NCBI GenBank assembly: GCA_030827595.1
Contig: JAURED010000005.1
Location: 1 to 46,859 of the forward strand
Direction: 5' to 3'
DNA: 46,859 bases
DNA from: Burkholderiales bacterium
Lineage (GTDB): Bacteria > Pseudomonadota > Gammaproteobacteria > Burkholderiales > Methylophilaceae
Of this stretch, positions 7,597 to 15,010 are shown piece by piece. The translations under genes and the position numbers were made by a program. The notes under the pieces were generated by a model, which did no database searches, was not told where the DNA came from, and saw only the letters and a list, made by a program, of their open reading frames with translations. Position 1 is the stretch's first letter. Each line of letters begins with the position of its first letter.

Positions 7597-7611
7597 AATG
7601 TTTAAAAGTTA

Positions 7612-7707
7612 AGGCGAGCCATAATCTCGGCACTTGCTTCATTAGTTGTGGCTGCTTGCTTCCGCACCTGACCAGGTTGGCTAACTTACAATGCGAGGTG
7701 ACCCGCC
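7612..7707 (-). ncRNA. ffs: Signal recognition particle RNA, small bacterial type (4.5S RNA)
   Basis: On the minus strand the sequence contains the SRP core GGTCAGGTGCGGAAGCAAGC, which holds the conserved GGTCAG and GGAAG elements of domain IV, followed by GCAGCC. The 5' end GGCGGGTC can pair with the 3' end GGCTCGCC to close the long hairpin, giving an RNA of about 96 nt. It binds Ffh and targets ribosomes making membrane proteins. The gene lies 15 bases upstream of the dnaX start on the same strand, with no terminator between, so dnaX is probably transcribed through it. A possible -10 box (TAGAAT, 7720-7715) lies just upstream. The exact ends are estimated from the pairing. Confidence 0.9.
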
Positions 7708-10285: not shown

Positions 10286-10819
10286 TTAGATTAACTTACA
10301 AAACTCTCCGTTGATTTTTTGATCCGAAATACTAGTCGGTAATTTTTCAGACAGCTGATTTAAAAATTCCAAATAAAGATTTTTGAGCTGGATATCGTGT
10401 CGGGCTTGAATATACATTTGTTTTTTTATGGAGAGTGTTCCATGATTAACTTGCTTTGATGGCTCTTGGTAAATGTAATAATTTAAATCAGCATACATCG
10501 TTTGCATGAGCGGGTTGTAAAAGAAATTAGGTTCAAGCTTGATAATAAAGTCTGAGGTATTTGATTTTTGACATTGACTGTAGGTTATCTTGTTAATAGA
10601 TTGCTGATAGTCGGCTAATGCTTCTTTAAATACATCGGAATGACGATAAAAAATTCTTCTGTTTACACGTGTGGCAATTCTTTCTGAATCGGAGTAATAA
10701 TTATAACGATCATCAAAATAATATTGGACAGAGGTTTCTTCATTGGCTGATAATGTCCTAATAAAAATGAGATTAAAAATAATGGATAAAAAAATAATAT
10801 TTATAAGTTTATGGTTCAT
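10286..10819 (-). CDS. Hypothetical exported protein
   Basis: I do not recognise this 177-residue protein. It begins with a signal peptide (basic NHK, hydrophobic core LINIIFLSIIFNLIFI, likely cleavage after LSA near residue 25). The mature part is rich in tyrosine and asparagine and has two cysteines (QCQKSN near 99 and EFCKLI near the end) that could pair in the periplasm. No catalytic motif is visible. Its start codon lies inside the divergent nuclease gene: the two 5' ends overlap by 38 bases if both starts are right. The 3' end is 7 bases from the convergent 84-residue gene. Confidence 0.6.
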   Translation of the reverse strand: MNHKLINIIFLSIIFNLIFIRTLSANEETSVQYYFDDRYNYYSDSERIATRVNRRIFYRHSDVFKEALADYQQSINKITYSQCQKSNTSDFIIKLEPNFFYNPLMQTMYADLNYYIYQEPSKQVNHGTLSIKKQMYIQARHDIQLKNLYLEFLNQLSEKLPTSISDQKINGEFCKLI

Positions 10820-11279
10820 TTTTTTTAGTCTAAATGGTTTTACTTATAGTTCAACAGAAAATGGGAATATTATAAAGATAATTGATGGCGATACGGTTCA
10901 TTTTTTAAAAGAGGGGGATACAAAATATAAAAAAATTCGATTAGTAGGCATTGACGCACCAGAGTTAAAACAGGAGTTTGGAAAAGAATCAAGACAATGC
11001 TTGGTTGAATTAATTGAAAATAAACCAATACAGTTGGTCAAGTTTGGGCAAGATCGTTATCAGAGAATTTTAGCTAAAATAAAGATTGATCAAGTTGATA
11101 TCAATCTTGCTATGATTAGAAAAGGATGCGCGTGGTTTTATCGACAATATCAAGAAAGTCTTAATGAGGATGATCAAAAATTTTATGATCAAGCAGAACA
11201 GATGGCTCAAAGGCAATTTTTAGGTTTGTTTAAAAATGTAAAAGCGCTTCCACCTTGGGTGTGGCGAAAAAAGAATTGA
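10782..11279 (+). CDS. Secreted thermonuclease-family (SNase-like) protein
   Basis: The protein carries staphylococcal-nuclease fold motifs: IIDGDTVHF near residue 32 (calcium-binding Asp), the KIRLVGIDAPELKQEFG block near 51-67 with the catalytic Arg and acidic residues, and RYQRILAKI near 90 with the second catalytic Arg. It likely cuts DNA or RNA outside the cytoplasm, because it starts with a signal peptide (MDKKIIFISLWFIFFSLNG). I chose the ATG at 10782; the upstream ATG at 10743 would put 13 extra residues before the signal peptide. The chosen start overlaps the divergent gene at 10286-10819 by 38 bases. Confidence 0.82.
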   Translation: MDKKIIFISLWFIFFSLNGFTYSSTENGNIIKIIDGDTVHFLKEGDTKYKKIRLVGIDAPELKQEFGKESRQCLVELIENKPIQLVKFGQDRYQRILAKIKIDQVDINLAMIRKGCAWFYRQYQESLNEDDQKFYDQAEQMAQRQFLGLFKNVKALPPWVWRKKN

Positions 11280-11310: not shown

Positions 11311-11841
11311 ATGAAAAAAATATTATCTATACTCTCTTTATTTATATTTCCTGTAGTGAGTTCTGGGGCCTGTGGTAATTTTTACGACACTCCTTTAAAA
11401 ACACTTCAGGGTGAAAATTTTAATTTATGTGAATATAAAGATAAGCCAATTATCTTTGTCAATACGGCGAGTAAATGCGGATTTACTTCCCAGTTTGAAG
11501 ATTTAGAAAAATTATATGCCAATAATAAAGATAAGCTCTTAATCGTCGGTTTTCCATCCAACGATTTTAATCAAGAACCAGGCTCAAACGAGGATATACA
11601 AAAATTCTGCAAATTAACTTATGCCGTTGAATTTCCAATGATGGAAAAATCAAGTGTTGTGGGTCCTAAAGCCAATCCGATATATCAGAAACTCAGCGAG
11701 GTAACTGGCAAGGCTCCGATGTGGAATTTTTATAAATTTGTTGTCATGCCTAATTTTGAAAAAGTCCATGTGTTCTCAAGCATGACCAATCCAGAATCAA
11801 ATGATATTAAGAAGATCCTAAAGCCCTACAACATTAACTAG
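11311..11841 (+). CDS. Glutathione peroxidase, cysteine type, exported
   Basis: This peroxidase reduces hydroperoxides with a thiol donor. The catalytic cysteine sits in NTASKCGFTSQF (near residue 55, where animal enzymes have selenocysteine), with the conserved GFPSNDFNQEPGSNEDI holding the catalytic Gln near 90, and the Trp-containing block APMWNFYKFVV near 146. An N-terminal signal peptide (MKKILSILSLFIFPVVSSGA) indicates a periplasmic location, not the cytoplasm. It lies 31 bases after the nuclease gene, so they may be co-transcribed. Its stop TAG shares the palindrome CTAG with the stop of the convergent ppsR. Confidence 0.92.
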   Translation: MKKILSILSLFIFPVVSSGACGNFYDTPLKTLQGENFNLCEYKDKPIIFVNTASKCGFTSQFEDLEKLYANNKDKLLIVGFPSNDFNQEPGSNEDIQKFCKLTYAVEFPMMEKSSVVGPKANPIYQKLSEVTGKAPMWNFYKFVVMPNFEKVHVFSSMTNPESNDIKKILKPYNIN

Positions 11842-12650
11842 TTTTTGTTAATGTGCTGGATGATGATTGCAGACAATTCTTCGACGGAGCGACTTGTCGA
11901 ATCTGCAATTGGCACACCCAGTTTTTGCATCAATTTTTCTGCTTTTTTAATTTCATCTTTACAGTTTTCAATCGAGGCATAATGGCTGTCGGGCCTGCGC
12001 TCACTTCTTAATGAGCTTAAGCGGTTCGCTTGAATGGTTAGACCAAAAATTTTATCGATATAACCTTCGAGAATAGGTGGGACAGTTCCTCGTTCAAAGT
12101 CTTCAGGAATCAAGGGATAGTTGGCTGCTTTGATGCCAAACTGCATCGCCAAGTAAATACTAGTTGGCGTTTTTCCACTGCGAGAAACGCCGACTAATAT
12201 AACGTGAGCCTGATTTAGACCATTATGGGTCATCCCATCATCATGACCGAGTGCAAAGTTGATCGCCTCAATCCGATTACCATAATTTGCTCCATTCATG
12301 CTATGAGCAACACCCGGGCGGGTGAGAGGATCTTGTTGCAATTCTTTTCCTAAAGGAAATATAAAAGATTCAAACAGGTCAATGTAGTAGGCATCAACTT
12401 CTTTCAGTTCGCTCCTTAATTCATTACTCCCAATAGACATAATGACTACAGGACGCAAACCATTGATTAATTTGGCATTTACAATACGTTTTTGGGCATC
12501 TTCAATTTTTTGATGTGAATCTGTAAAAGGGATTCGAATTTGCTCAAATTCTGTTTCTGGAAAATGCGCCAAAAGACCGCCAAGTGATCCGGCAGTAATA
12601 CCTGTTCAATCAGAAATAAAAAAAGCACGACGTTTAAGATCGTTAGCCAT
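11838..12650 (-). pseudogene. ppsR: PEP synthase regulatory protein (DUF299) gene with in-frame TGA at codon 15
   Basis: This family (bifunctional kinase/pyrophosphorylase) inactivates and reactivates PEP synthase by threonine phosphorylation. From the ATG at 12650 the frame reads R-R-A-F-F-I-S-D, then TGA at 12608-12606, then T-G-I-T-A. The family consensus here is ISDGTGIT, so a glycine codon GGA appears changed to TGA. The rest is intact: the P-loop GVSRSGKTPTS lies about residue 150 of the full frame, and the C-terminal region is complete. A TTG at 12572 could restart translation but would lose the conserved N-terminus. The ATG overlaps the ppsA stop (TAATG). It may be a true nonsense mutation, a sequencing error or a read-through stop; TGA is used as a normal stop elsewhere in the window. 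Confidence 0.85.
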
Positions 12651-15010
12651 TAATTAGAGATTTTTTTCCAGGTTGAAACCACTGTATCTGGATTTAATGA
12701 GACTGAAGTAATTCCTTTTTCAACCAGCCATTGAGCAAAATCATCATGATCTGACGGACCTTGTCCACAAATACCAACGTATTTATTTTTTTTCTTGGCG
12801 GATGAAATTGCCTGCTCAATTAATTTCATGACCGCAGGATCTCTTTCATCAAATCCATCTGCTAAAATACCTGAATCGCGATCGGTCCCCAGTGTGAGTT
12901 GAGTTAAATCATTTGAGCCAATCGAGAAGCCATCGAACAGATCAAGGAAATCATCTGCAAGGATTGCATTGGATGGTACTTCACACATCATGATGACTTT
13001 GAGCCCATTTTCTCCTCTTTTTAATCCGTGAGTTTGTAAAATTTCAATTACCGCTTTAGCTTCATCTAGTGTTCTAACAAATGGAATCATGATTTCAATA
13101 TTAGTGAGGCCTAATTCATCACGCACTTTTTTCAGAGCTTTGCATTCCAGAGCGAAACAGTCTTTAAATTCATCAGAGCGATAACGTGCAGCCCCTCTGA
13201 ATCCGATCATGGGATTCTCTTCATCAGGTTCGTAAATATCACCTGCAACTAATTTTTTGTATTCGTTTGACTTAAAATCAGAGGTTCTTAAAATTACTGG
13301 ATTAGGGTAAAACGCAGCCCCAATGGTCGCGATTCCTTCAGCCACCTTGCTGATGTAAAAATCCTCAGGATCTTTATAGCCTTTTGCCTTATGATCAATA
13401 ACGCTCTTGATATCATTTGGCATAGCCGCATAATTAATAATTGCTTTTGGGTGCACTCCGATAATGTTGTTAATGACAAACTCAAGTCTTGCTAAACCAA
13501 CACCATGGTTAGGAATTTGAGCGAAGGTAAAAGCCATATCTGGATTACCTACATTCATCATAATTTTTACAGGGGGTTTGGGTAGCTCACCATCTTCTTG
13601 AATGTCAATATCAAAATCAAGCTGGCCTTGGTAAACAATTCCGGTTTCTCCCTCAGCACAGGATACAGTGACAATATCTCCATCGTTTAATAATTCGGTG
13701 GCATTTACGCTTCCAACAATAGCTGGAATGCCTAACTCACGAGCAATAATCGCGGCGTGGCAAGTTCGTCCACCACGATTAGTGACTAATGCAGAAGCAC
13801 GTTTCATAACGGGCTCCCAATTAGGGTCTGTCATGTCTGCGACTAAGATATCACCCGGTTGTACTGTATGCATCTCGTTTGGATCAGTAACAACTCTTAC
13901 GGGGCCTGTTCCAATTTTTTGAGTCACTGCTCTGCCAGCTACAATAGCTTTACTGGTTTCTTTTAATTTATAAGTTTCGGTAACATTTTTTTTCTGAGAC
14001 TTAACTGTTTCAGGTCGTGCTTGAAGAATATAAAGTTTATTGTCTAAGCCATTTTTTCCCCACTCAATATCCATAGGGCAGCCGTAATGCTCCTCGATGG
14101 TAACTGCATATTTTGCTAATTCAAGAACTTCTTCGTTAGTTAAACTAAATTGATCCGCATCTTGTGGATTAACATCAATCGTCTCGGTACTTTTTCCAGC
14201 CTCATTTAAATTCGAGAAAATCATTTTAATTTTTTTTGAGCCTATTGTTTTTTTAACAATAGCCGGAAAGTTTTTTTTCAAAAGGGGTTTGTGTACATAG
14301 AATTCATCAGGGTTTACTGCACCCTGAACGACCGTTTCTCCTAAGCCGTAAGATGAGGTAATAAAAACAACATCCTTAAATCCTGATTCAGTGTCGATTG
14401 AAAACATTACTCCCGCACAACCAATATCACTTCTGACCATCTGTTGCACACCGGCTGAAATTGAAACATCTGCATGAATAAACCCTTTATGAACACGGTA
14501 AGAAATTGCCCGGTCATTGTAAAGAGAAGCAAATACTTCTTTAATTGCTTTTTTAATATTATCAATACCATGAATGTTAAGGAAACTTTCTTGCTGCCCT
14601 GCGAATGAAGCGTCTGGAAGATCTTCAGCAGTTGCTGATGATCGAACTGCAAAGGTCATCTCATTGGATGAGCGTTTAATGAGAGTTTCATATTCTTGTT
14701 CAATAGCGTGATCCAGTTCCTTAGGAAAAGGGGTTTGCATAATCCAATTACGAATTTTTTTACCAGAGGCTGCAAGTTGTTGGACATCATTGGTATCGAG
14801 GTGCTCAAGTTCAGACTCAATTTGCACTCCAAGATTATTATGCTTAAGGAACTCCTGGAAAGCCTGCGCTGTGGTTGCAAATCCAGTTGGAACACGAATT
14901 TCTTTCTGTGTCAGTTGAGATATCATTTCTCCCAATGAAGCATTTTTTCCGCCCACCGAACCAACGTCGGTATTCCTGAGTTTTTCAAAAGGGATTACGT
15001 AATCAACCAT
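12650..15010 (-). CDS. ppsA: Phosphoenolpyruvate synthase (pyruvate, water dikinase)
   Basis: PpsA makes PEP from pyruvate and ATP, releasing AMP and phosphate, and is needed for gluconeogenic growth. The N-terminal ATP-grasp domain shows VGGKNASLGEMI near residue 19 and FAVRSSATAEDLPDASFAGQ near 118. The swivelling domain has the phosphorylated histidine in GGRTCHAAIIARELGIPAIVG (split at residues 413-433, His near 418). The C-terminal TIM barrel has FSIGSNDLTQLTLGTDRD near 706 and the GICGQGPSDH block with the proton-donor cysteine near 751. Length (786 residues) is normal. It is followed by ppsR with a one-base overlap and diverges from glnE. An 18-bp palindrome lies 24 bases upstream of its ATG. 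Confidence 0.97.
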   Translation of the reverse strand: MVDYVIPFEKLRNTDVGSVGGKNASLGEMISQLTQKEIRVPTGFATTAQAFQEFLKHNNLGVQIESELEHLDTNDVQQLAASGKKIRNWIMQTPFPKELDHAIEQEYETLIKRSSNEMTFAVRSSATAEDLPDASFAGQQESFLNIHGIDNIKKAIKEVFASLYNDRAISYRVHKGFIHADVSISAGVQQMVRSDIGCAGVMFSIDTESGFKDVVFITSSYGLGETVVQGAVNPDEFYVHKPLLKKNFPAIVKKTIGSKKIKMIFSNLNEAGKSTETIDVNPQDADQFSLTNEEVLELAKYAVTIEEHYGCPMDIEWGKNGLDNKLYILQARPETVKSQKKNVTETYKLKETSKAIVAGRAVTQKIGTGPVRVVTDPNEMHTVQPGDILVADMTDPNWEPVMKRASALVTNRGGRTCHAAIIARELGIPAIVGSVNATELLNDGDIVTVSCAEGETGIVYQGQLDFDIDIQEDGELPKPPVKIMMNVGNPDMAFTFAQIPNHGVGLARLEFVINNIIGVHPKAIINYAAMPNDIKSVIDHKAKGYKDPEDFYISKVAEGIATIGAAFYPNPVILRTSDFKSNEYKKLVAGDIYEPDEENPMIGFRGAARYRSDEFKDCFALECKALKKVRDELGLTNIEIMIPFVRTLDEAKAVIEILQTHGLKRGENGLKVIMMCEVPSNAILADDFLDLFDGFSIGSNDLTQLTLGTDRDSGILADGFDERDPAVMKLIEQAISSAKKKNKYVGICGQGPSDHDDFAQWLVEKGITSVSLNPDTVVSTWKKISN

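Follow-up and report, generated by a model that had tools for sequence, protein, structure and literature searches.

The PpsR/PSRP family (PF03618, DUF299) comprises regulators of PEP synthase that act as ADP-dependent kinase and Pi-dependent pyrophosphorylase. The E. coli family member is reported to inactivate PEP synthase in an ADP/ATP-dependent manner and to reactivate it with Pi (PMC2817694), and a maize relative is described as phosphorylating and dephosphorylating pyruvate, phosphate dikinase (PMC9138534). Loss of PpsR is already known from E. coli and Burkholderia in the laboratory, where it was in some cases selected for. Evolved E. coli ppsR loss-of-function mutants are reported to grow, with the inactive, phosphorylated form of PpsA more than 100-fold lower (PMC5700066), and in glyphosate-resistant Burkholderia anthina mutations of ppsR, among them a truncation, are reported together with raised PEP (PMC10667639). 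Narrow literature searches returned no paper joining ppsR with a premature stop or with a methylotroph.

The ppsR gene analysed here is interrupted by an in-frame TGA. It lies in a draft genome of the Methylophilaceae (assembly GCA_030827595.1), on contig JAURED010000005.1, of which positions 1 to 46,859 (46,859 nucleotides) make up the window, that is, the whole stretch of DNA that was analysed. The gene, encoding the PEP synthase regulatory protein, occupies 11838-12650 on the minus strand and spans 270 codons plus a stop. Read from the ATG at 12650, its frame gives MANDLKRRAFFISD, followed by TGA at 12608-12606 (codon 15) and then by TGITAGSLGG..., and is open until the TAG at 11840-11838, the TGA being the sole interruption. 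A six-frame search with PF03618 resulted in a one-piece match with this single internal TGA, scoring 243.3 bits (cut-off 23.5). The C-terminal P-loop pattern of the family, G-V-S-R-[ST]-G-K-T, was found in the ppsR frame as GVSRSGKT; the uninterrupted frame looked for in a PpsR family member was absent, TGA standing at codon 15.

The ppsA gene (12650-15010, minus strand), encoding PEP synthase, is located upstream of ppsR and is intact, with the domains PPDK_N, PEP-utilizers and PEP-utilizers_C. Its product is 99.1% identical to that of the closest genome compared, isolate LSUCC0401 (G008), and retains the motif GGRTCHAA, which we take to be the site of the regulated Thr and the catalytic His. 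The TAA of ppsA overlaps the ATG of ppsR in a TAATG junction. Codon 15 of ppsR is GGA in both G008 and the outgroup genome G011, so one coding-strand G-to-T change accounts for the TGA. The original prediction had been made from this DNA alone and had described the stop at this codon, a single change from GGA to TGA, and an otherwise intact gene with its P-loop and its coupling to ppsA; all of this was found at the locus.

On the other side, a glutathione-peroxidase-like gene (11311-11841, plus strand) is convergent to ppsR, with stops overlapping by 4 bases. Further along, two head-to-head frames at 10286-10819 (minus strand) and 10743-11279 (plus strand) overlap at their 5′ ends by 77 bases and have dN/dS values of 0.19 and 0.21, the highest among 42 window genes; a Pfam search with the frame at 10286-10819 gave no match. 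A small SRP RNA gene was located at 7610-7707 (minus strand, 68.3 bits).

In sequence family, in its GVSRSGKT motif and in its position directly after ppsA, the window gene resembles PpsR/PSRP, from which it differs in being broken by TGA at codon 15. With the alleles reported from E. coli (PMC5700066) and B. anthina (PMC10667639) it has in common that ppsR is lost or damaged; those alleles, as presented in these reports, arose under selection in the laboratory and were confirmed by sequencing, whereas the window allele comes from one draft genome and has no known selection behind it. Using the intact G008 protein as query, the only solved sequence at E ≤ 0.001 was the maize pyruvate, phosphate dikinase regulatory protein (5d0n, 5d1f; E 1.8e-21). 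SDGTG and GVSRTGKT are both found in the maize protein, which, unlike the window PpsR, is a plastid protein and acts on pyruvate, phosphate dikinase.

The age of the stop was assessed by comparison with G008, with which the whole window is collinear and aligned in one piece at 94.4% identity. In ppsR, 49 base differences were counted, of which 44 are silent, 4 are replacements and one is the stop. Following polarisation with G011, the window lineage was assigned 24 silent changes and the stop but no replacement, and the G008 branch 12 silent changes and the 4 replacements; 8 silent changes were unpolarised. If ppsR had been unconstrained over the whole window branch, about 79 replacements would be expected alongside the 24 silent changes, with single changes taken as equally likely. 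As none was observed, unconstrained time can make up no more than about 4% of the branch, or 6% with a single replacement overlooked. Relative to G008, dN/dS was 0.022 for ppsR (rank 12 from the lowest of the 42 window genes) and 0.014 for ppsA (6th lowest). Judged from these substitutions, ppsR is under strong purifying selection.

As in a nonsense pseudogene, the ancestral codon is intact in close relatives; signs of relaxed constraint or of additional decay since the stop arose, which would also be expected of a pseudogene, were not found. Such a lack of decay fits a stop of very recent origin and an erroneous base alike. Taken together, the branch counts place the stop at the very tip of the lineage, as a very young mutation or as a base absent from the cells. 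A very recent nonsense mutation or a sequencing error had both been proposed beforehand, which matches the count of 24 silent changes, 0 replacements and 1 stop; the two stay unseparated by it.

We slightly favour a real base over an erroneous one, and give a little better than an even chance to a tip-lineage G-to-T change at codon 15 that produced a real null allele and left PpsA unswitched. The sequence of events would be as follows. At the tip of the lineage, a single G-to-T change would have converted GGA to TGA. Translation from the ATG overlapping the ppsA stop would then end after 14 residues, leaving no working PpsR, provided that useful read-through and an internal start are both absent, as we infer. 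PpsA, with its motif intact, would escape the phosphorylation that switches it off and would remain active. By analogy with the published mutants, a constantly active PEP synthase is the plain prediction if the allele is real. That PpsA might be unregulated, as first suggested, is accordingly a fair reading of those mutants, the PpsA target motif being intact.

An error in base calling, amplification or assembly, with the cells carrying an intact ppsR and the TGA existing in the draft alone, is also quite possible, if somewhat short of an even chance. A lone tip substitution with no second hit, in a gene as strongly constrained as ppsR, has the look of one wrong base. In addition, the draft assembly is gapped, its 22 contigs amounting to 821,260 bases at 67% completeness. 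To these weights, which are a judgement on a single sequence from one draft genome, the quality of the surrounding assembly is relevant. In the window, 47 frames of at least 60 aa were compared with G008, of which 46 were matched. Three window frames contained stops relative to G008, namely ppsR and two frames antisense to tRNA genes. The latter two were set aside because of this antisense position, the one at 10055-9861 running over tRNA-Ser and the one at 33736-33452 over tRNA-Val and tRNA-Asp. By our reading, no frameshift or interior stop relative to G008 was present in window genes other than ppsR.

The comparison was also carried out on a wider sample, consisting of the window and 10 further stretches (214,082 bases, 214 kb), against 858 kb of G008; a G008 counterpart was obtained for 199,430 of the 214,082 bases. 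From 836 G008 frames of at least 80 aa, 199 were matched at 70% identity or more, and 181 of these were covered over at least 95% of their length. Stops were found in five matched frames: ppsR, the frame antisense to tRNA-Val and tRNA-Asp, and one frame each in stretches L124, L126 and L125. The stop in L124 lies ahead of a second Met, apparently the actual start, and the three stops in L126 fall within the first 20 residues of a frame whose start looks chosen too far upstream; neither was retained as interior nonsense. In L125, the stop (10352-10354) was likewise rejected as it sits at the last-but-one residue of a G008 frame of 372 residues, the protein of which would be two residues shorter. 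The stop in ppsR was therefore judged the sole genuine interior stop among the 199 matched frames.

The 18 partially covered frames ended at piece ends (13) or at runs of exactly 100 N (5). Such runs break genes in contigs C2, C5, C7 and C8 (stretches L118, L121, L123 and L124), and since the lengths missing relative to G008 differ from run to run, they represent scaffold gaps of unknown size.

With 63,043 codons aligned, and 96 of the 2,430 single changes in ppsR creating a stop, the base error rate was bounded loosely at less than about 4 in 10,000. The lack of other genuine interior stops or unexplained frameshifts in the matched frames speaks against a sloppy assembly, and so against an error at codon 15, within this loose bound. 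Nor does the type of change point to an error: G-to-T/C-to-A accounted for 7 of the 133 window-derived changes over 4,360 sites, an ordinary minority class and hence no damage signature.

Codon 15 was subsequently compared among relatives. A PpsR match was present in 52 of the 61 genomes searched, and a stop was found inside the window copy alone, the other 51 matches showing none. Within the genus, 27 of 31 genomes had a PpsR match; leaving out this genome and G009, in which the match is cut at a contig start, all 25 other matches were without a stop. The codon-15 column of 111 aligned loci contained Gly in 88, Ser in 13, Arg in 9 and a stop in one, the window copy. These loci represent 106 distinct sequences, five of the Gly loci being exact repeats of another locus; the ppsR genes of G011 and of JAQCBB010000039.1 are identical (L030 and L032 represent one source). 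Comparing the same codon in relatives, as had been proposed, thus gave GGA in G008 and G011 and no stop in the 110 other loci. The glycine, which had been called conserved, proved to be common (88 of those 110) and not invariant. In contrast, S13, T16 and T19 of the SDGTGIT motif were identical in 111 of 111 loci.

In a survey of the family, 171 of 187 genomes had a PpsR match, and among the matches listed no other stop was present. Among genomes with a completeness of 90% or more and a contamination of 5% or less, PpsR was kept in 116 of 119, and its loss is therefore unusual; together with the lack of stops in the 61-genome search, this is a further point in favour of an erroneous base. The 16 genomes without a PpsR match included 12 that also had no PPDK_N match, all of them less than 90% complete. 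In G010 and G197, the PpsA match lies at or near a contig start, and G079 had only broken, lower-scoring PPDK_N matches. Given this pattern of missing PPDK_N, incompleteness and contig edges, most absences look like assembly gaps. The remaining genome, G078 (same family, genus g40; scored 100% complete), has a full PpsA and no PpsR match, and may be a natural example of a PEP synthase lacking its PpsR regulator. The state of PpsA without PpsR may therefore exist outside the window genome.

A null allele further depends on how the TGA is read by the ribosome. A real but leaky TGA, read at a low level by a near-cognate tRNA, most likely tRNA-Trp, would yield a little PpsR and make this a down-allele. 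The next base after the TGA is A, and in E. coli tRNA-Trp is reported to misread TGA more readily in this context (PMC5289835); the site also tolerates Gly, Ser or Arg in relatives. Trp itself, however, occurred at this column in 0 of 111 loci. TGA is moreover a normal stop in this genome, ending 6 of the 43 window genes counted, 2 of them as TGAA, and RF2 is encoded, as shown by a prfB match above the cut-off. The 111 nt of RNA from the start codon showed no better folding than shuffled sequences (z −0.27). In search of a suppressor tRNA, 13 pieces of this genome were scanned; the 7 tRNAs obtained did not include tRNA-Trp, the anticodon of which was thus not seen. Leaky read-through is consequently considered very unlikely.

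Selenocysteine insertion or other programmed recoding could be suspected from an in-frame TGA with an open frame on either side. SelB was found over its curated cut-off in 0 of 5 genomes, namely this one (67% complete) and four relatives of about 99% completeness, and the matches below it resemble other translation GTPases. Furthermore, the codon-15 column is Gly, Ser or Arg and never Cys in the 110 other loci, and the TGA is shared by none of the other 51 matches. Selenocysteine was rejected for the lack of SelB, the unremarkable folding and the lack of a conserved TGA or Cys at the site, and programmed recoding, by selenocysteine or otherwise, is rated extremely improbable. A changed code with TGA as a sense codon was rejected on the basis of the genes ended by TGA and the RF2 gene. 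Programmed read-through, selenocysteine and a changed code therefore have no support, and nothing points to a new mechanism. Stop read-through, which had been raised at the outset, is thus unsupported as a regulated event, the TGA being an ordinary, unshared stop in RNA of no unusual structure.

Also extremely improbable is a shortened PpsR initiated at TTG of codon 27, the longest remaining frame with a standard start (11838-12572, minus strand), with a catalytic domain that still works. The product, of 244 aa, would retain GVSRSGKT, and for the maize regulatory protein a single active site in the C-terminal domain is described in a review (PMC9138534). The N-terminal SDGTGIT motif, with its invariant S13, T16 and T19, would however be missing from it, and no evidence of use of this internal start was found.

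The reading as a real null allele retains our slight preference. A broader version, in which a ppsR null allele that locks PEP synthase on is in natural circulation among OM43-type methylotrophs and is perhaps favoured, as a wild counterpart of the sweeps in laboratory evolution, is considered unlikely. The description of the organism as a methylotroph fits the group to which the window genome and G008 belong. If the TGA is an error, the finding amounts to an annotation warning only, as automated gene calling could be expected to omit PpsR or to call it short, and so to report it as lost. If it is real, a regulator kept by 116 of 119 well-assembled relatives is dispensable, at least for a time, to a streamlined methylotroph, and the allele would provide a natural test of the purpose of PpsR control in such methylotrophs.
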